Below are positions 13,150 through 64,000 of a DNA stretch of 64,000 bases, piece by piece. Below the pieces are notes generated by a model, which saw only the letters and a program-made list of their open reading frames with translations, was not told where the DNA came from and did no database searches. Location of the stretch: the NCBI GenBank assembly GCA_034509925.1, contig CM067530.1:7752001-7816000 (forward strand). Reading direction: 5' to 3'. The position numbers and the translations under genes were made by a program. The stretch is from Hirudinaria manillensis. Its lineage: Eukaryota; Annelida; Clitellata; Hirudinida; Hirudinidae. Every line of letters starts with the position of its first letter. Position 1 is the stretch's first letter.

Positions 13150-16100
13150 ATGGAAGCATCATCTGCTACGAACTTGGAAGAAGATTCGGAAGATGTTCTT
13201 GAGATCTCCGATATCCCAGATGGTTTTAAAGAGGATCTGCTTTTGATGTTAATAGAAAATAATTCTGATGGTTATGGTTGCATTGCGATTCGAGACTTTG
13301 ATTCTTCCCGTAAAAGGGCCACAATTTCAATAAAAAGTCCACAAAGTAGGAACATGAGTATTACATTCGAATCATCTTCTTAAGGGTCATCTAATACTTT
13401 TATTGTATTTCCAATAGTTGCAGAGAGAATTTTAAATAACAGCTTGAATTGGAACAATAAAACAATGGGGACTAAAAGAGTTTCTGCCCATGAACATGAA
13501 CAAAGTAATGAACATTCTCTTCCAATTATGAGGACAGTTCAGCTTACAGGAGATTGTAAATCTCTCAGTAAAGAGAATCTGTTGATGTATCTTGAAAGTG
13601 AAAGACATGGTGGTGGGAAAGTAAATGAATTCCAAGTTAACAGCTCTGGCTTCCTTGTGACATTTGAAGATGCCAATGGTTATTACATATATTATTTCAA
13701 CATGTGGGGAAAATTCTTAAGTCTTCAATTTTTATGATTAATTATATTATTGTGCAAAGTTATTTTAATGATAAGTAACCTATAAATGTTAATATTAATT
13801 ACAGTTCACTTATATAGTTTTAAACATTACATCCTCTCCATTGATTTGATATTTGTTTGCTTTGATTTCAGTCGCTCGTGCATTTTCTTCTCGAGATCAT
13901 GAATTCTGTAAAGTGAAATTTAAAGCTTCATTATTGGAGAGTTGGCCAAAGACAAATGGCAGTTGTGCCATTGAAATTATCGCCACTGGAGAGATTGATG
14001 TTAACACAATTGATATGTTATTGGAAAGCTGTCGTTATGGAGGTTCACATGGCATCATTGAGGATCATTTTCAAGATGATTATGATTCAAACAGATTTGT
14101 ATATACTTTAAAAAGTCATGAAAGTGAGTCGCATAAAGATAACATTTTATGATTTAAAATTGTTCTTTCACTTGAAGTCAAACTCATCAGCTTCTTAAAT
14201 ATATTGTTTTCTAGATGTCCAAAGTATTATCGAAAAGACTGATGGCAAAATAAAATTCAATCGTATAGAGTTGACTTTGAAGATTCTCTCCCCAGCAAAA
14301 CCTCCAACTTTTGTGGAGGATCCGGACAAGAAAAAGTTGATTTTTTTGGAGTTAAATGCACAAATTTTGGCTGACAAGGAGGAACTTCAAACTTTTATCA
14401 AAAATTGTTCAGAAACTGATGTTCAACAGTTGTTCTTTTGTTGTGAAAATGATTGCATTCTAGTTCAGTACAGAGAAGAGCCAAGTGAATAATTTATATT
14501 TATAATATAAGTTGATTTCATAATGGGTGGCTTGTTATTAGAAAAAAAAATTAGAAAATGTCAATTTGAAATAACATTCATTTCAGAATTCGAAAACATT
14601 ATGAACATCCTTTGTTGCAAGCCATTCAAAGGTTCAATGATATCTGTCCAGAGAATAGCTAAAACCAAACAAATCAAAGTTTACGGTTGGAAGAAGCATG
14701 AAGATCTGGTTGCACTTCATTTTGAAAAATACAGCAATGGAACTGTGGAAAATGTTTTTGAAGACGAGGAAGGTGTTCTAACAATCACTTTCCAAGATTT
14801 TGATTGTGAGTTTCGAGTATTTCTGGCAAATTAAGAGAAGATCGAATTCAGGTGGGAGAAGCTTTAGTAAAATTTATTTTTCCAAAGCTGTGGATGAAAT
14901 TCTGAAGCAAGTTAATGAGATTTCAAAAGCTGAGGATATTTCCATCGTTCCTTACATTGAGGCATTTGAAGGCAGAAGTTTCAAATATTTGGACCCCCCT
15001 CCATCCATTCCGGATGATGTCAAAATCCCGATCAAACGAGAAGTCAATGTTCAACTTTTTGTTTTTTCTTTTTGAAAAAATTTGGTAAAAAATGATACTG
15101 TTTTTAATTTAATTAATTTAATTGATATTTATTTTAAGATTTATGGATTCCTGTATGAAAATCAACGATACAAGGTTCAAATTGAAACTGAGCTAAGCAA
15201 ACTCAATTGTTCACTTCAATGGCCGACTTCTATTTCTAATGTTGAAGCTACACTGACCTGGGATAATAAAAGGTCAAGCTGTCAAAATATGAGATCTTGG
15301 TCTTCAGATGTGATAAAGTGCTTCAAGAATAAAATTGAGGAGTTAGACTATTGTGAATTTTCACCGCCCAACGATACTTTTGACTTTGTTGCATCTGAAT
15401 CCAAGAAATTCAAGCCAGGTATAACTAAATTATTAAAAAAAATTGATGAAGAAAATAAGAAAATATTGTTTGCTGGTCTGAAAGATGTTGTCCAAGAATT
15501 TAGATCACTGCTTGGTGAACAGGATGAAATCGCTCGAAATATTAAGCGACAGTCAGTCAAGTTTAACAGACATCAATTTCTGCTCATCACCAGGTCCGGT
15601 CGTATTGGAAACCTTAAAAAGAATTTTAAGATCACTGTCTATGAAGATGAAAACGATCATTCTATATTGCTCAAAGGTCCAGCAGAACATGTGAAAACAT
15701 GTCAATTGAAACTCGAAGAATTAAGGAATAAAATTAAAGAGGAAGAGGTGCCTTTGTTTGGGAAACATTTGGAATTCTTTCAAAGAGAGGATGTCATGGA
15801 TAAAGTAGCAAAAGAATTTGAATCGAAGAAAATTATTTCAGTTCTGAGTGTCAACTCTGATTCCCTGCTGCTACATTCATTTGACGATATCACTAAAGCT
15901 CAGGATTGCTTGGCATTGTTATTTACAATATCAGAATTTGAAATTGATAAAAGCGAGGTGGAGGCCATGAGTTATGTTGAATGGTCTAACTTTGAAAATA
16001 ATCTGAAATGTAAATTTAAAGAACCCTTCATGTGGTCCTCAGTTAGTGGCAAAATGTACATATTGGCAGCTACGAAAGAACACGACAAAATAGAGAAAGA

Positions 16101-17447
16101 ATTTCACAAATATTTTAAAGAACATGCAAAAGTGACTGAAACATTTATGAAGCCTCAACCAGTTGTGGACTTTTTAATAGCAACGAATGAATTTCAAGAA
16201 TTAAAAATAAGGGCCGGGTAAATGAGGCTTAAAATCTTGAAATCCTTTTGTTATAAACTTAGGAATTATTGATGTTTTTAGCAAGAAAAGGTAGAAAAAA
16301 TGTAGAAAATAATGCTTAAATGATAGTGTTCGAATTAATGGCAATAGTCATAATGTGACTTGTTCAATACCTAGCTTCCATTGCCTTAAGAACCTCTGAC
16401 TCTTTGTAGATCAATTTCATTTGCATAGCATATTTTTTTTGACAGCACATCATTATTATTATTATTATTAATATTATTATTATTATTATTGTTTTTTTGT
16501 TAATAAATAAGCCTCAGAGTGGCAGCAAATGAATTAATTGTTCCTAAATTCTATTTAAACCTTTATTCAACAGCCTAGATGATGTTCAGTGGCAGGTTGC
16601 ACGTGGCTCACCTCTCCAGTTGTTTGGACAAAGGGCAAAAGTGGCTGAAGTTAAGGTTGATTTGGAGAAAATTTTCTCTAGAATCGTTTCAAAAACACAT
16701 CTATTGGAATGCAAAGCCAATCATTTATTTGAAGCTAAAAACTCAAATATATTTGTGGGCATCTGCAGTAAATGCAAGGTTTGAGATTGTGAATTATGAA
16801 TTGAATTTATTAAAATTCTGTAATTCTATAATTTAATTTTAAGGTCCACATCAGCCTTAAAAATCCTAAACAAAATCATGAAAGAGATGCATCATCTCCA
16901 ACCAAAAATGGGGATTGCAAAATAAGTGTCATTTGTGGCTCTATAGCAGACCAAAAAACTGACATAATCTTCAACTGTTGTCCTTCAAACTTGGAATTAT
17001 CTCATTCTGCAATATCAAAGGTGAAGTATCTTCTAATCTCAAACTCTTCTCACGTCATTACGTTTGTGACAAAATAATTCTTTCAGGCACTCTTGGAGGT
17101 TTCAGGTTCGCAATTACAAGATGACTTGAAAGCAAAGTGTGGGACTAAGAAATTATTAGCTGGAGAAATTGTTGAAACTCCGGGATACAAGTTGAATTGT
17201 GACAGCGTTTACCATGGCTACATCATACCCTGGAATAAAAATGCTTCTGAGAGTGAAAAGGTCATTAGACTATTAGGAATTATTCATTTGCATATAAAAT
17301 AATAATAATCAGAGTTTATTAAAACAGAATTTCATGAGTTATTTGCATTTATTCACATATATAATTTAAAATGTGCTTGAAAATTCATCAGAATATAAAT
17401 CAACTCTTCATTTCATTGAATATGATGTTGAATGCTCTGATCTGCTC

Positions 17448-27583: not shown

Positions 27584-30500
27584 GCTCGGAAGAAGTTCGC
27601 CCTCTTGAGAATTCTCAATGAATCGAAAGAACACTCGAATCTTTATCACTCCGTTTTGTTGAACGTGGAAAGAGGTCACCAAAGCAGGTCATCCATCGCC
27701 TCCAGACAGGTATGGATATCCCTTGTTTCCATCTCAAACTTTGTTTACAGCAACTTTAAATTTCCAGTGCGATCATAGTCCAAACGGATGTCAGGGAAGA
27801 GAAGAAGAAGTCAAGAAATCTGCACCACAACTCGATGAAAGTACCGGAGGACAAACCGCAAATCCCGGTCCCAATCTTCCGAGGTGCGTAATTCTTCATT
27901 ACAGTCCCTTCAAGGCCATCTGGGACTGGATAACTCTAATTCTTGTACTCTACATCGCCCTGGCAACACCGTACTTTGCAGCCTTTCATTCCACCACTAG
28001 CAATATCACTCCAGTACAAGATTCTCCAAGACGAGTTTCAGAACCCTTCGAATATTCAACAAACGTATCTCAACAGACCTACTTAACTGTTGATACGAGA
28101 CCCTCTAAGTTCTCCAAGAGAGGCTCGATCAATATTCTCGTCATAGTGGATTTGGTGGTCGACATCATGTTCCTTACAGACATCCTCATCAATTTTCGAA
28201 CTACTTACCTCAGTGATGGAGAGGTGGTGACCGAGCCAGGAAAAATTGCCATAAATTACATCAAAGGGTGGTTCTTTATCGACGCACTGGCAGCCATTCC
28301 TTTTGATTTGCTTCTCTTCAGAGTTCCAACAGACGTGAGAAACATTCAATTAATTTTAACTATTCGCAGCAGTGCCATCGCTTCTTGACGGCGGTAATGA
28401 AGATAGAAACTAATGGTCCGTTTGATAAAACATCTGCGATTCGAAATTTTCTTTAAAAGTCTTAAGTAACAGCAACATCGACATTGTCGAAATTGCAAAG
28501 CTTCTGAAGACTGATTAGAATCTTACATCTTGGCCCGCAGAGAGTCACTTTGACTGGGGTTCTTAAGGCTGCTCGGCTGTTGAGACTTCTGAGAGTGGCA
28601 AGAAGGATTGACCAGTATTCGGAGTATGGGGCAGCGGTTCTCATTCTTCTCATGGGAACTTTCGTGCTCATCTCCCATTGGCTGGCCTGCATTTTCTACG
28701 CCATCGCTTATTATGAAAGACTCATGCCGGATGCCCTTCCAATTGGTTGGCTGGATGGGTTAGCAAACAAGACAGGTATGCCCTACATGGCCAACGATTC
28801 GCTGAGCGGTCCAGACACTGGAACGAGGTTCATTTACTCATAAATAAAAGCGGATTCTCTTTTCTAACGAAACAAAATTTAATTCAATAAGTCATAAGAA
28901 ATGTTTCTTTTCTTTTACTTCCAGCTATATTACGTCGCTTTATTTCACCTTCACCATCCTGACCAGTGTCGGATTCGGAAACGTGGCTGCGGTTACAAAC
29001 TCTGAGAAAGTGTTCACAATAGTCGCCATGCTGGTCGGATGTGAGTTCTATTCGGAAATGTTCTAATTTTCACTGCTTGCACTTTTAGATTTTAGAATTT
29101 TTCGATATTCTCGTTTCCCGTTTCCTTCTTTAGCGTTGCTAAGCGCAGCCATTTTCGGCAACGTGTCTTCCATCATGTTGAGGCTCTACCAAGGTACCGA
29201 GGAGTATTTGGAGATGCAGACGAGGATCAAAGAGTTCATCAGATTTCACCAAATTCCAAAGACGCTGGCTGACAGACTGATAGAGTCCTTCCAACACTCG
29301 AGATCATTTGCTCACGGCATCGACATGAACAGCGTAAGAATGGAATTATGAGCACAAATGTTATTGTTCCGACCAATTACACTAATACTAGGTGAAATCT
29401 CCTGTTGATTGAATGAAACGTTCGGATAATTGTCAAGGATAACATGGATTACACGCAGGTACTCAAGGGATTTCCCGAATGCTTGCAAGCAGACATTTGT
29501 CTCCATCTCAATCGGGTCTTGCTCAGCAACTGCGAGGCATTCGCAGGAGCATCTCAAGGTACGCTAATTAATATGATACCTATGACAATAATTATTAATA
29601 ATTACTGTATTTATTTATTTCTTTTCGTTAAGTCTTTATAGCTATCTATTCGTTATACTCAGTTGCATGATGGAAGAAGTTCGGATCTTATGTCGGACCC
29701 AACTATTGGTTCGCAAGTTTTAATAAAGTCCTCACATATAAATGTTTAAGTGCTTCTCCTAAGTAGTTCTCCGTGAATAGAAGGAACTCGATAAAGAGAT
29801 TCATTTCTAATTTCGTGACTGTGCAGCACCGTAATTCCAAATAAATACTTTTTTATGTTGGTCTCAAAACTGGAAACAGTTCGGTTTTAAAGTCTTCTTT
29901 TTTTATATATATTTGAATGATAGAATTCTGCAAAACTAGTTAAGGTTCTAGAATTGAATCCATCTTTCGATGGGCTACAGAATATTTCCTTAAAGCCATA
30001 TAGTTGTTTTGAATGTCGAGACCTTTCGTCTTTTGTTAGAAATTGCCAAAAAATATGGCTTAAATAAAGTATGATTTCTTCTTCATCCTAATTAACTTTT
30101 CCCTGTAAGAACACGATGACGTTGTTGTTTTAATAAAATAAATTGATTAGATAAATTAGCTAACAATTAATCTCTCCAATTAAATGCGCTCCAAATTGTT
30201 TCCTGTTGCTATTCAGCCCTTGTCGTCATGGCCGTCGACAAATTTAATTAAAGATCTTTCCTTACCTTCGAAGGATGCTTGAGAGCTCTTTCGGTGAAGT
30301 TCAAATCCACTCACTGCCCGCCAGGGGACACTTTGGTTCACCCGGGAGACATAATTGAATCCATGTACTTCATTGCTAGGGGTACAATTGAAGTCGTGGC
30401 TGACGATATCATAATGGCCATTCTAGGTTAATAAATTCTAGTTCAGCATCAAATTTGAATCTTATTTTTAATGTGACGTTTTAATTACTTTTCTTTTAAT

Positions 30501-57389: not shown

Positions 57390-60300
57390 TTAACCAAAAA
57401 GGAAGCCTCCCTGAAATCGAGATTAATTAATTATTATATTAATTAATACAATTAATACAATATAATATAATATATTATATTATTGAAATATTACCTGTCT
57501 CTGTTGTGGTGGAACAAGTCCTTCCTGAAATCGTCATAAAAATATTTTAATTAAAATTCTGAAAAACATTTTTAAAAAAATCAAAGCATAATAACCAATT
57601 CTTTGTTCACCAGACCACCAACGACGTTCTAAAGATCATAAATTAAATAAATGTAATAAATAAATGACTAAATAAATAAATAATTAAATAGATAAACAAA
57701 CTTTAAATATTTGTCTAGAAATTGATTAATTCTTAATAAATAATTTTATTTTTTTTACCACTCCACTCTGCAGAGCACCTCCGACTGGGGACTTAGAACA
57801 AAAAGAGAAAAAAAGGTTAATTAATTAATAAAAAAATATTAAAATATTAAAATAAATAATTAAGAATAAAATAAATAATAAACGCAGTAATTGAAGGTTA
57901 TAAATTCCTGAATGGACACCAAAGTTAACGTTTGAATTTATTAAATTTAATAGAAATATTTCATGTTTCGTTATAATGTGAACTTAAAACAGAATGGCTG
58001 GAAAACAATCCCTTACCTGGTTACCTCCAAACAATCCAAGAAGAAAACCACCTCCACTCTAAATTAAATTAAGTTAAATAATAAATTAATTAAATAATAA
58101 CTTAATTAATCATTAAATTTGAAGGTTGAAAGTAAATTATATTTACTATACTTTATACTATATTTACTATGAATTATAAGTTATAATTATAAATTATAAG
58201 TCTATAATGCACGTTGGTCGTACAAATTATAATATTGCTTTCTGGCACAAATCTCACTAATCTAATTATCAATTTATTTAAAGAATTATAGAAGTTTTTA
58301 AATAAATTTTAGATTTATCTTGAATATAAACAAAAATTGAAAAATTAAAGCAAAAAGATTAATTAATTATAATAAAGTGAAGTTAAAACATTCGATTGAA
58401 TTATTACCTGATCACTTCCACTGGGCTGAAACAATAAAATTAGATAAATATTAAATCAACATAAATTTAGAATAATTAGGTTATTAATTTAAAAGAATTT
58501 TATAAAAACAACTATTTGATTAATAAAAACAATTAATATTTAATAAAGACAAAAAAAATGTAAAAAGTGGTCTTTGTGACCAACCTTTCCTCCCAGCAAG
58601 CCACCAAGGAGACCTGTCTAAAATTATAAATAAACAATTTATATTTATTAATAATTAATAACAAATAAATAATTATTGTACTATCTTTATTAATAATTAA
58701 AATATAAATAAATAAATCATATTATTAAAGGTTTAAAAATATAATTGAAGTGACGTAAAAGAGCATTTACATTTCCGCCTAGCAATCCTCCAAGAAGAAT
58801 TAAATTTGAAATAAATTAATAAATCAATAATAAATCATTTTTTATATTTTTGTAAAATCACAATAATCTGAAAAAGAAAAGGCAATGAATAAAATATATT
58901 ATTGTGATTTGCTCATAATATTTAATATAATCTCCAATTAAGAGAAATATTTAATTGCATTTTTATTTAAAATCAATTCGAAGAAATTATTTAATCACAA
59001 ATGTCTTACTTTTCCTCCGAGGAGTCCACCAAACACAGTATTAAGGAGACTCTAAATAACAATAACATTAATTGGATTAATTAAAAAGAAGCAATATAAT
59101 AAATAAATAAATGAATAAATAAATAAATAAATAGATAAATAAATAAACAAATCAATAATTAATAAAATCAATAAATCAATAGACAATTTACCGATCCCAG
59201 TCCGAGGACACCACCGAGAAGACCCTGTAAAAGCAAATTAATTATGTAAAGATGATAATATGATGAGATGATGATGATTTTTATATTTTTGTTATTTTTA
59301 TATTATTATGTTATTTTTATATCATTATGTTATTTTTATATTATTATGTTATTTTTATATTATTATGTTATTTTTATATTATTATGTTATTTTTATATTA
59401 TTATTGTCTTATTTTTATAAGATCAACCAGCAGTTACGTACTTGACCAAGTCCCAAAACTGTTCCAGCAAGACCTCCAACTGCGTTCTAAAATACACACG
59501 ATTTTGATGTAAGTAAATGTATTTATTTATTTACAAATAATAGATTATTTAATTAATAAATTTAATTATATATATTAAATAATAGAATATTGAAACAATG
59601 TATATTAAATAATAGAATATTTACTCCTGCAGTTCCTACGAGACTTCCAACAACACCCTTAAAAATGAAAACGTTTCGATTTTAGAAAATGTTATTCACA
59701 AAAAAAATTAATTAATTAAAATTAATAAATAAATAAATAATAAAAATTAATAAATAAAATGCAAATCAAACTCACAACAGGATTCAAGAGGTCAGAGCCT
59801 AGGTTCTAAATAGAGATATTGTTTTTTGTCAGTAATTTTTTTAAAAATTGTAAATAAATAAACAAATAAATAAATAAATAACTGGTAATCTGAAATTAAC
59901 TCTGTTATTCAATGAACTTACGGCTGTCAAGCCACCGAGGGACAGCTTGAGCAGGTTGTTCTTCAAACCAGTTTTGACCAAACCCGGAAGTTGTAAATCG
60001 TCGAGAGTGACGGCAGTGAATTCAGACCAGAAGTCCAATCCCAGGGCTGTCTTGAATTTTGGTACACTTTGCAGGTAAAGCAGACGAGTTGCCTTAGGTA
60101 CGTTCAGAGGAACCCTGCAAATTAAAAGCGTTTATGTTCACGAACCTCAGAAATTAGTAAATAAATAAATGGATGAGTGAATCAATCAATCAATCGGTCA
60201 GTCAATCAATTAATCAGTCAGTCAATCAGTAAGTCAGTCAATCAGTTCTTTACCAGTTGATGAAGATTGGTTTCAATTCGGTTTTACCGCGAACTGACAC

Positions 60301-63300
60301 CGGAGCCAAGAAAATGGCGTATTTGGGTTCTCCTCTCTTCTGAGCGTTCAGGAGATCAGCCTTGAGGTTATCAAATGAAGCACCTGCACGTAAAGACAAA
60401 GAAATTAAGTCTTTTTTTTTGAATCTATAAAACCAATTAGCCTACCGATATCGGCAGCCTTTTCCAAAACAGCTTGACCGTTTCTCAGACTGAAGACAAC
60501 GTAACGTTTCAATCCTTTCAGAAGTTGTTTCACGGCGTTGGCTCCGTTCAGGTCGAATTTTACCTTAAAAATGAAATTAATAAAAGTGTAAATTAGTGAA
60601 TGATTATTTCTTTAGGACTCTGAAGTGGAATATTTTTGATAATCAAGTTGAAAAGTGAAATAATTACATTTGGAACGTTTGCATTTGGTTGACCGAACAC
60701 ATCTCCACCGAGGGTTCCCTGAAAGTATATGTAAACTTACATAATTTAAATTATAATAACCCTAACCCTAATTAATAATAATTTTAATGTTAACGATAAT
60801 AATATAACATGTAATAACAATTCCCTTTGTAAAACTCTTGAAATAATAAAGAATTGTTGACCAAAACCAGTTTCAAAGTCAGTTACTTGTCCTTCGTAAT
60901 CCTTTCCAAGTGCGACCTTCAAGATGGCATCGAGATTCAAATCGCCGACCGAAGATGCAGTGACATCGAGCAGAATCGGAGCCTTTGACAGAACTTTGAA
61001 CGACGGGAAGTTGGTTTCGTAAAGAGATCTGAGTCTCTCCGGAACGTTGAATGGGGCCCTGAAATGGATTATTTAATAAAATAATTAACGTGAAATTCAT
61101 ATTCACGTGGCCTTTTCTTTTCATTATCATTTTCCATTAGCTTGACTGCCTTAGCTATAAAGCATCCTTAAAATGTCTTAATAATTATGTTATTGTTTTT
61201 TTTTTTTTAAATTACCAATTTGCATATTATATCTCGTAAAAGAAATTCCCAAAAACATACCATAGGAAAGAAATCAGTTTTTGGACAACTGTTCCCTTGG
61301 TTCTTATCGGTGCCAAGTAAACAGCATATCTGGGTTCTTTGTCATTCTGAGCAGCAATGAGGTCGTCAATGAAAGCGTTGAAATCGGCCTCTGAAGGGGA
61401 ATAGAATTACGATTTCAATTTATGCTTTTTAAATTCTGCCTCAAATCACATAACGGTTTTTACTGAGTGGAGCCACTTTGTCGACCACGATGCTTGTCAA
61501 ATCTTTGGAGAATTTGAACAGGGCATATCTGATGGAACCTTTGCTTAGATCGTTGAGAGCTCCTTTGGCTCCAGCGTTGAAGGTGAACTGAAAGGACAAG
61601 ACAAGTGGAACAACTTGGATTGAAAGTTTTGTCCGCATAAATTGTCCAGTGTTAGTCTAAGTGTTAATTTCGTGAAAATATGGCGTTTCAACCAACTTTT
61701 AAATAAATCACAAAAATTATTTGTTTTAATAAATAGGAGAGAGATGCGATCAAGGTAGGTGGAAGTTCTTATTTATTTTAGATTAGTGTTTCGTGCATTT
61801 AATTGAGGTCAAACTTTGATACGAATATTTGATACACAAATATTTCCATTACCTCCACGTGTCCGGATTGTGTGGGAACTTTGCCTCCGAGAGCCAAATT
61901 GAGGACTTTATCGAGTTCCAGGTCATCGGCCGAACTTGTGGGGAACTCAAAGAAGAAGTCAGTTTTCAAAGCAGCCTTCAACTGAGGAACGAGTGACCTA
62001 ATTTTCACGCGGTTAGCATCAGAAACGTGGCCAGGAATCCTTGGGAATTAATGAATTAACGAATTATTGTTATGCTTATTGATGCTTCAAGTGATTGTGC
62101 CCTACCAATCAACCAGAAGTAACTTCTTTGCTGTTTGGTCACCCAATGGGACGTCGGCTGCAAACAATGCAAATTTTGGGGTGGTGGAGCGTTCAAGATC
62201 AGCAGCCAGGTCACTAAATCCAGCTCCTTTGAATTTTGTTTATCGATTAACTCCAAGCACTTAAAATCATTTTCTTGCGCATTTTTTTTTGTCATACCTC
62301 GCCCAGCAACTTTTTCGAGTGAAATTGTTGAAAAGTCAGATGATACGTCAAAGATAACATAAGAACTGGATCCTTGGGCAACTTTTGAAAATCCTGAAAC
62401 GGCACTGGCGTCCACAGTCACCGTATCCTTGCTCTACAAAAGACGTACCAAAAAAATGGCAGTTTTCAAAAGAAAACATGAAGGAAGTTTTTCTAAACTC
62501 ACCACAACAGTTTCCTGGAGATCGTAAATGTATTCACCAGATTCAATGACGTTGTAACCAGCCAAACCGCTCTCAACGATGTTTTCCAAGTTGAGATCGT
62601 GCTCGGAACCAGTGTGGACAACAACCCATACGTCAGCACCCAAAGCTTCGATTACATCGTCGGCTTCATCCTTGTAAACCTTTTTCAGTGAAACGGATGC
62701 ACTCAATGGGATCCTGAAATCAGTTTGGAACGGCATGTGTCGGCATTTTATCACAAGGATATAAGATTCAGAACTGATAAAATGAATCGTACCAAGCAAA
62801 GAAAAGCAGTTTGCTTTCGCCCTTCACCGTAGCAGAAAATACGGCGTATCTTGGCTGAGAAGTTTTTTTAGCGAGCGACAAATCAGCAACGAGACTTGAA
62901 AATTCACCGCCTGCAAATAAAAACTTTGAGCATGTTTGAGCTCTTTTCGGATAAAATGAGTCGGATGACATTTTACGATCGTCTTACTGGAAGATTTGTC
63001 GAGGGCCAGCGTTGTCAGATCATCTCCCAGCCTGAAGACTGCATAGCGTTTACTTCCCTGAACCACTGCCTTAAATGCCGCCGAAGCTTCTATTTCAACC
63101 GTGACAGTTGAAGAAACCTTTGCAACACGAATACAAAATGAATTTATCGAGCGAATATAAATAAAAAAATATATATAAATACGTCGTACACTAGATTGTC
63201 ACTAACCACGTTGAAGCACACGAGAAGAATTCCAATACTCAAACCAGTCAGCAAACCCTGCGATCAAAATTTCAAATTTTTACTTCTGACTCGACATTTC

Positions 63301-63331
63301 AGTACAGACATTTAAAACTCCTTCTCACCAT
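57390..63331 (-). CDS. Predicted secreted protein with four ADF/cofilin-like domains and a Gly/Leu-rich mini-exon tail
   Basis: The first coding exon is only ATG (63331-63329). The second (63257-63207) gives GLLTGLSIGILLVCFNV, a signal peptide, followed by VSSTVTVEIEAS. Four domains follow, each shaped like an ADF-H fold: a beta strand ('KRYAVFRLGDDLTTLALDK', 'SSYVIFDVSSDFSTISLEK', 'IRYALFKFSKDLTSIVVDK', 'KRYVVFSLRNGQAVLEKA'), a helix plus second strand ('QPRYAVFSATV', 'PKFALFAADV', 'PRYAVYLAPI', 'PKYAIFLAPV'), then 'KLLLVDWIP' or similar and a helix. Cofilin has the same order and the Trp-x-Pro. Approximate spans: 63117-62590, 62430-61850, 61590-60900, 60720-59922. After the last domain come about 13 mini-exons to 57390. 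Actin is intracellular, so binding it outside the cell is unlikely; an extracellular structural, adhesive or matrix role is inferred. I do not recognise this as a named protein. Confidence 0.8.
58771..58799 (-). pseudogene. Probable decayed mini-exon (LLGGLLGGN) without an acceptor AG
   Basis: Has the same coding pattern and a donor (AAT|gtaaat) as its neighbours, but no in-frame AG precedes it: the expected acceptor reads ...TTTAATT. Either a dead copy of the repeat unit or an exon using a non-canonical acceptor. Confidence 0.5.
59101..59160. repeat. (AAAT)n low-complexity tract
   Basis: Imperfect tetranucleotide run between two mini-exons of the ADF-H gene. Confidence 0.8.
59281..59410. 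repeat. Tandem repeat of 18 bases, about seven copies
   Basis: The unit is TTATTTTTATATTATTATG, with one base changed in one copy; it lies in an intron of the mini-exon region. Confidence 0.85.
60179..60246. repeat. (AATC/AGTC)n tetranucleotide tract
   Basis: Imperfect run of CAAT/CAGT units in an intron of the ADF-H gene. Confidence 0.8.
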
Positions 63332-64000
63332 CTTCACTCCAATGTCTTGCAAGCGATTTGAAGACTGCAAAGCAACTGGTTAATGTTGGCTTTTTATACA
63401 TTTTCAGTGGACGCGTGTCAAGGTGAATCGGCCATAAAGTTTCCTGAAACATGTCGTCAAAGCCTATGACGTGTGACATGTATATTTTCAGAAATGTAAT
63501 TTATATCCATGTTTTCGATCGATTTGTCCATATCTTATGGTTTAAACCTTCGTGCACTTTGAGTTGGAGTTATAGTTATCATCCTACTATACTAGAGACA
63601 CAAGATCACACAAAGCGCCTCCGAAGCTATGCATATGGCGCTCTACAAATTAACTATTATTATCCTGTTTATCATTCTCAACTGTTTTTAAACTATGATT
63701 AACGTCAAATTTTATTTTTAAAAGTCATTAAATTACTTTACGAGTTATTTTAATTCAATCAATTAATAATTATGGTAATATTTTATAATTTAAACACTCT
63801 GTGAATTTCCAAAGATATCTTCTTTAATATTAAACATTGTACAATTATAATATAAAATAAAACTTCAAAAACGTGGTTAATCGTGTTTTTAATCGTTAAA
63901 ATGAAGCTGAAATACCTTTTTGAGAATGAGATCGTCGGTTTGTTTAACAAATAAATAACAAAATAAAATTCTGGATAAATTAAATTTAAAAAAAAAAAAA
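63332..64000. other. Upstream of the ADF-H gene: no gene seen
   Basis: The first 100 bases should be 5' leader and promoter; the sequence TTTTTATACA (about 63390, minus-strand TATAAAAA) is a plausible TATA box about 60 bases above the ATG. The rest is AT-rich without structure and ends in a run of A at the window edge. Confidence 0.45.

Follow-up and report, generated by a model that had tools for sequence, protein, structure and literature searches.

A leech gene for a putative secreted protein of four tandem cofilin-type domains and a glycine-rich tail

We analyzed a stretch of 64,000 nucleotides from the Asian buffalo leech Hirudinaria manillensis (the window; assembly GCA_034509925.1, contig CM067530.1, positions 7,752,001 to 7,816,000 of the forward strand). 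It contains a gene, gene 1, that is predicted to encode four tandem ADF-H domains preceded by a signal-peptide-like segment and followed by a glycine-rich tail, and that has three relatives on the same contig.

Gene 1 and its predicted product

Gene 1 lies on the minus strand, from 63331 to 57390 of the window, exactly where the first-pass annotation had put it. With splice sites read by hand, it is composed of 27 exons encoding a product of 750 residues, and each of the 26 introns has an AG acceptor and a GT donor. Its features are as follows (window positions; pI, computed isoelectric point).

63393-63398, minus strand: TATA-like box (TATAAA), 67 bases upstream of the ATG; a consensus match only
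63329-63331, minus strand: exon 1, the ATG only, with donor GTGAGA; hand-read splice sites
63207-63257, minus strand: exon 2, signal-peptide-like segment GLLTGLSIGILLVCFNV, phase 0-0; from hydropathy and an equivalent exon in three paralogues
62503-63117, minus strand: ADF-H domain 1, exons 3-5 (63117-62988, 62910-62793, 62713-62503); Pfam 56.3 bits; acidic, pI 4.6
61853-62433, minus strand: ADF-H domain 2, exons 6-8 (62433-62298, 62226-62106, 62039-61853); Pfam 41.4 bits; pI 5.1
60887-61587, minus strand: ADF-H domain 3, exons 9-11 (61587-61464, 61390-61261, 61058-60887); Pfam 55.0 bits; pI 9.1
60668-60718, minus strand: exon 12, 17-residue linker GTLGGDVFGQPNANVPN between domains 3 and 4; hand-read splice sites
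59922-60563, minus strand: ADF-H domain 4, exons 13-15 (60563-60446, 60383-60254, 60114-59922); Pfam 38.9 bits; pI 10.0
57390-59805, minus strand: tail, exons 16-27 (12 micro-exons), 125 residues, Gly/Leu-rich; stop codon TAA at 57392-57390

A telomere-like unit, CCCTAA, occurs twice inside a gene 1 intron, at about 60760-60773 of the window.

The Pfam profile PF00241 (Cofilin_ADF) matches the whole gene 1 protein in four stretches (E=6.5e-52), and all four units, submitted singly, score above its cut-off of 22.4 bits. A phmmer search with residues 1-625 matches actophorin, UNC-60B, and cofilins. A profile of 11 domains of the family ranks actophorin first in the PDB (E=6.8e-21), followed by cofilins, with twinfilin-1 at 4.3e-5. 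These matches confirm the predicted ADF-H assignment, which the first-pass annotation had based on cofilin. The Trp-x-Pro pattern that it had pointed out is likewise present in all four units, and in 25 of the 26 units of the family. Searches of NCBIfam, a prokaryote library, with residues 1-461 and of PHROGs with the tail return no match. The four units are only 29-34% identical in pairwise comparison. Each (exons 3-5, 6-8, 9-11, and 13-15) is encoded by three exons, the end phases of which are always 1, 2, and 0. The linker exon between domains 3 and 4 extends the earlier description, as do the four-gene family and the cofilin intron signature presented below.

The tail, described earlier as hydrophobic and glycine-rich, contains 40 Gly and 26 Leu in 125 residues, has 0 Tyr, 0 His, and 2 Lys, and reaches a hydropathy maximum of 1.57. 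Its micro-exons are 18-45 nucleotides each, all of phase 0-0. A further tail exon candidate, ILLGGLLGGN (58795-58760, minus strand), has a donor and was rejected for the absence of an AG acceptor; it is perhaps a dead micro-exon.

At the other end of the protein, GLLTGLSIGILLVCFNV of exon 2 is part of the most hydrophobic 19-residue window (Kyte-Doolittle 2.19). The product has a single Met in 750 residues, the start encoded by the ATG exon; therefore, within this model, the frame can start at no other ATG. A hydrophobic exon, judged by hydropathy, lies upstream of the domains in all four genes. The signal peptide claimed in the first-pass annotation is supported, not proven: in its favor are the hydrophobic exon after an ATG candidate in all four genes, the scarcity of cysteines, and the lone Met.

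The same values, 2.19 at the N-terminus and 1.57 in the tail, would also suit a membrane-bound protein with its domains outside or inside the cell, held either by the hydrophobic exon as an uncleaved anchor or by insertion of the tail into the membrane. The usual hydropathy cut-off for membrane segments is 1.6. The tail falls just under this value, which narrowly disfavors tail anchoring. In addition, small residues follow the hydrophobic core in three genes (VSS/T in gene 1, GSS/T in gene 3, and TSA/T in gene 4), as in cleaved signal peptides. We regard a membrane-bound product as improbable.

Three related genes on the same contig

A genome search with gene 1 residues 1-625 returns at least 34 exon matches at E<=1, 33 on the contig of gene 1 (contig 5) and one within a cofilin gene of contig 7. 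When the third and the second unit of gene 3 serve as queries, at least 41 and at least 20 matches are returned, respectively, all on contig 5. Exon models of the paralogues were made by profile search and splice scoring, with some unit borders approximate.

Contig 5 (the contig of gene 1), 9519388 to at least 9514903: gene 2, four units
Contig 5, 7827962 to at least 7820381: gene 3, three units, then candidate exons rich in Gly, His, Phe, and Lys
Contig 5, 7853004 to at least 7837163: gene 4, array of 15 units in one orientation and phase, with a signal-peptide-like exon in front

The family thus comprises 26 units. Pfam testing covered the four gene 1 units and six sequences from genes 3 and 4, three of them from gene 4. 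Five of the six sequences pass the PF00241 cut-off; the single miss is unit 1 of gene 4, submitted without its third exon. Gene 4 presents 15 first exons, 15 third exons, and 14 middle exons plus a weak middle exon in unit 1 (E=0.51), and 11 of its 15 units are Lys-rich copies. The uninterrupted phase suggests that all 15 units belong to one gene. Within the array lies a candidate for an acidic linker exon, KPEEADEDEDEDDDEP (contig 5:7843072-7843025).

Upstream of the units, all four genes have an ATG/GT candidate and a phase-0 hydrophobic exon. Within 1.5 kb of the hydrophobic exon there are 2, 1, 3, and 6 such candidates in genes 1-4, respectively, and the nearest was chosen each time. TATA-like boxes lie within 100 bases upstream of three of the four chosen candidates, gene 2 having none. 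The first exon of gene 2 unit 1 (contig 5:9519156-9519027) has a GC donor (gcaaga) in place of GT. Residues GNLGGDVFGEADDSIPS of gene 2 resemble the gene 1 linker GTLGGDVFGQPNANVPN; the exon finder ran the third exon of unit 3 through them.

When all 26 units are placed in one tree, in which four inner branches have support below 0.5, each of the four units of gene 1 pairs with the unit of the same number in gene 2. The first units of genes 3 and 4 also form a pair, whereas the second unit of gene 3 groups with units 2-4 of gene 4 and the third with units 5-15. Therefore, gene 4 resembles a gene 3 in which unit 2 is present three times and unit 3 is present 11 times.

The tail of gene 2 matches six of the 12 gene 1 tail exons, with the order kept:

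Gene 2 tail exons, in order: NLGSDILNPV, GAVGCLLGTAG, NLVGGLTGAVLGLGQ, GIIGGVLDFGM, NLIDSFFGGLFGGK, VGLFGGIFNKK
Gene 1 counterparts, in order: NLGSDLLNPV, GVVGSLVGTAG, NAVGGLAGTVLGLGQ, GLLGGVLGLGS, SLLNTVFGGLLGGK, TGLLGGLLGGK

The third pair scored low, and for the other six gene 1 tail exons no counterpart was established in gene 2. Downstream of the gene 3 units, the coding strand holds 11 Gly-rich candidate exons and the opposite strand none, compared with 0-2 per strand in control stretches (n=5, two overlapping). A wider scan, with a filter of at least one quarter Gly per candidate exon, gives twelve places, the 109 residues of which include 50 Gly, 18 Lys, 12 Phe, and 9 His. Low-complexity Gly-rich sequence is thus present both in the tail of gene 1, where 40 of the 125 residues are Gly, and in the candidate tail of gene 3, where the count is taken over Gly-filtered exons. 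No tail was found for gene 4, which showed nothing beyond domain exons, the one acidic linker candidate, and a Ty3-like stretch.

Genes 1 and 2 were compared over 12 domain exons (581 codons). The encoded residues are 64% identical; the nonsynonymous rate (dN) is 0.244 and the synonymous rate (dS) is 2.18, which is saturated, for a ratio of about 0.11, with two of the 12 exons too diverged for dS. Among the 11 Lys-rich units of gene 4, pooled dN/dS values by exon are 0.094/1.177, 0.069/0.813, and 0.246/1.551 (55 pairs each), corresponding to ratios of 0.08-0.16. The codon comparison establishes that the predicted domains of genes 1 and 2 have been under purifying selection. Since gene 2 conserves the domains and six tail exons in order, gene 1 is real beyond chance.

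This bears on the question of whether the gene model is simply wrong, the product being an ordinary cytosolic multi-ADF-H protein with another first exon, or the gene a decaying duplicate. The model of gene 1 was read from DNA alone, one possible tail exon has no AG acceptor, and unit 1 of gene 2 requires the GC donor. Against an error of this kind, the four genes share one layout, the dN/dS ratio is about 0.11, the lone Met coincides with the ATG exon, and three of the four chosen ATG candidates have TATA-like boxes upstream. A wrong model is therefore very unlikely, and the sequence itself establishes the predicted architecture of gene 1 and its gene family.

Purifying selection would also suit a secreted soluble protein of the lumen, body fluid, or mucus with a binding or regulatory function, its ADF-H fold being adapted to a new ligand and its tail being incidental. 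Each gene 1 domain pairs with its own counterpart of gene 2 in the tree, indicating that the units are specialized rather than interchangeable, again as a binding protein might require. However, growth to 15 units, with 11 Lys-rich copies, and repetitive Gly-rich tails are typical of structural proteins, not of specific binders. We consider a soluble binding protein unlikely.

Exon structure in common with cytosolic cofilins

Three cytosolic cofilins of the same genome serve for comparison. In two of them, L004 (contig 7) and L005 (contig 4), a phase-0 acceptor precedes Ala-2, as in the putatively secreted units. Both have a phase-1 intron at the end of the unit's first exon and a phase-2 intron inside the Trp codon, in agreement with the family units, and ATG/GT candidates lie upstream. 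The phase-1 donor of L004 was picked to fit the acceptor, and a donor in another phase scores slightly higher. The third cofilin (L001) shares only the Trp intron of this signature. The exon structure is thus common to the family and to cytosolic cofilins, with the agreement in intron place and phase that descent from a cofilin gene would leave. Descent from coactosin or GMF was considered and rejected: in the two loci that we take to be coactosin (L006 and L007) and the one that we take to be GMF (L003), the coding sequence continues uninterrupted where the Trp intron would be. Among the loci assigned from the 15 PF00241 matches in the genome, none was recognized as a twinfilin gene; seven of these matches had no locus at first, and one stretch holding two of the seven was later read as an ADF-H gene, L063. 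A bacterial or contaminant origin was set aside without a search aimed at it, because the family has introns in common with cofilins of this genome.

In the simplest history, the first intron of a cofilin gene, directly after the start codon, would have received a signal-peptide exon, and the three-exon unit would then have been repeated.

The family units differ from the cofilins in their residues. The actin-binding helix motif KxKMxYxSS[KR], a pattern taken from this genome's own cofilins, is present in all three cytosolic cofilins and in none of the 26 family units. The cofilin N-terminus, M-A-S-G-V, carries a regulatory Ser; ASG is absent from the first eight residues of all 26 units. Cysteines are depleted as well, with three in 3721 residues of the family units compared with nine in 442 residues of the cytosolic cofilins (Fisher p=2.6e-7, a test that treats residues as independent, which those of related domains are not).

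These differences bear on a role in blood feeding. The source of the DNA is a blood-feeding leech and the cytosolic relatives depolymerize actin, so that a salivary or wound factor that binds or depolymerizes actin from damaged host cells can be envisaged. Certain cytoskeletal proteins are indeed known from leech salivary secretion, where they have been linked to apocrine secretion (PMC7191736). However, the loss of the motif from all 26 units, together with the lack of the ASG N-terminus, disfavors an actin-scavenging saliva protein, and the main text of that paper, the one salivary genome and transcriptome study searched, does not mention cofilin, ADF, or actin (PMC7191736). A salivary actin factor is quite unlikely.

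Possible role outside the cell

ADF-H domains are regarded as intracellular actin regulators. The first-pass annotation had suggested that those of gene 1 serve as an extracellular building block. This part of the earlier description is still an interpretation, made likelier because the actin-binding motif is lost and the array reaches 15 units.

The computed pI changes along the chain in the same direction in all four genes. By unit, it is 4.6, 5.1, 9.1, and 10.0 in gene 1; 4.4, 5.0, 8.0, and 9.0 in gene 2; 4.2, 5.1, and 9.9 in gene 3; and 4.4, 5.5, and then 9.3-9.7 in gene 4, so that the first unit is always at 4.2-4.6 and the last at 9.0-10.0. Given this gradient from acidic to basic, the chains could associate head to tail and condense.

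A mechanism can be outlined from these features. Once inserted into the intron that follows a cofilin start codon, a signal-peptide exon would direct the product to the secretory pathway. The secreted derivative would have lost actin binding, and its three-exon unit would have been repeated as a rigid bead. The acidic N-terminal and basic later domains would bring chains together, the tail would pack through hydrophobic contact, and the tail of gene 3 would perhaps be cross-linked through His, Lys, and aromatic residues. Less certainly, the protein may be a structural or adhesive part of a gland secretion, such as cocoon, mucus, sucker glue, or cuticle.

The family resembles ADF/cofilin proteins (cofilin, actophorin, and UNC-60; PF00241) in the profile domain, in W-x-P, and in the intron places and phases of two cofilins of the same genome. 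It differs from them in the signal-peptide-like exon, in having at least three tandem units and a Gly-rich tail, in lacking the conserved actin-binding motif, and in being almost devoid of cysteine. Twinfilin, a known cytosolic protein with two ADF-H domains, likewise has tandem domains in one chain. In contrast to its two domains, the family genes have 4, 4, 3, and about 15 units and a signal-peptide-like exon, and twinfilin-1 is a weak profile match (E=4.3e-5, compared with 6.8e-21 for actophorin).

Among secreted annelid proteins, the adhesives of sabellariid worms include Gly-rich and His-rich basic proteins and are packed by complex coacervation of oppositely charged proteins (PMC12621633). 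Their cement proteins Pc-1, Pc-2, Pc-5, and Sa-5 have Gly-rich repeats or His-rich basic sequence, comparable by description to the candidate tail of gene 3; in the parts of the source consulted, no ADF-H domains are mentioned for them (PMC12621633). The Theromyzon cocoon protein is secreted by a leech into an extracellular material and consists of repeated domains, as proposed for the family, but its six antistasin-like and EGF repeats are cysteine-rich, to judge by a cited title, whereas the family is almost free of cysteine (PMC12838937).

Several points weigh against a role of the family as extracellular material. Secretion is judged from the hydropathy of one exon and not by SignalP. The charge gradient comes from computed pI values and not from measured contacts between chains. 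The tail of gene 1, with 0 Tyr, 0 His, and 2 Lys, is unlike the sabellariid cement proteins cited, and the Gly-rich candidate exons of gene 3 were chosen by a filter that demands Gly. In gene 4, the middle exon of unit 1 is weak (E=0.51), an extra first-exon fragment without splice sites is present (contig 5:7851775-7851740), and no tail was found; the units are followed by a stretch that, by eye, we take to be Ty3-like retroelement sequence (contig 5:7836930-7832768). As to descent, the phase-2 Trp intron also occurs in cofilin L001 and in the ADF-H gene L063 and is therefore, alone, not diagnostic for L004 and L005. Finally, the domains of coactosin and twinfilin also differ at the KxKMxYxSS[KR] site, so loss of one motif does not exclude actin binding.

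On balance, the product of gene 1, a member of a family of four genes, is probably a secreted multidomain protein that combines four cofilin-type ADF-H domains with a hydrophobic Gly-rich tail and has a structural or adhesive function. A secreted matrix or adhesive protein is the most likely identity of the family as a whole. More tentatively, and with slightly less than even confidence, we propose that a leech cofilin gene was made into extracellular material: exported by means of a signal-peptide exon, repeated to about fifteen units, and equipped with acidic heads, lysine-rich bodies, and silk- or cement-like tails, the product would be self-associating.

Elsewhere in the window, an open frame at 15076-16218 (plus strand) has a PARP14-type KH domain (PF23084), and an ion channel exon (PF00520) that resembles the EAG potassium channel family lies at 27663-28385 (plus strand). 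In the mitochondrial contig, cox1 reads sensibly in the invertebrate mitochondrial code, and the gene order is cox1-N-cox2-D-(atp8)-G-Y-cox3-Q-nad6-cob ... C-M-(rrnS)-V-(rrnL)-L-S-A-L-nad1-I-K-nad3-(S)-nad2. Here cox1 was placed by Pfam, the tRNAs by ARAGORN (a few weak or antisense calls being ignored), and the other protein genes by eye; genes in brackets are weak or placed by position, and about 5.0 to 10.0 kb reads N. A conserved clitellate mitochondrial order, and trnA-trnS2 and trnY-trnG inversions in the leech Whitmania pigra, are described in PMC4866719. A cox1 match at contig 9:3026446-3027786 equals that of the mitochondrial contig in E-value and score and probably reflects either mitochondrial DNA copied into the nucleus or an error of assembly.

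Among the matches listed in the open-access literature, no title or abstract describes a secreted ADF-H protein. If the proposed reading is true, the family would carry ADF-H domains outside the cell, as many as fifteen in tandem, and would record a change of compartment with unusual clarity: the old cofilin gene structure can still be read, down to the ATG-only first exon. Leeches would also gain a candidate building material, beside the Theromyzon protein, the one cocoon protein met for leeches in the parts of the sources consulted.

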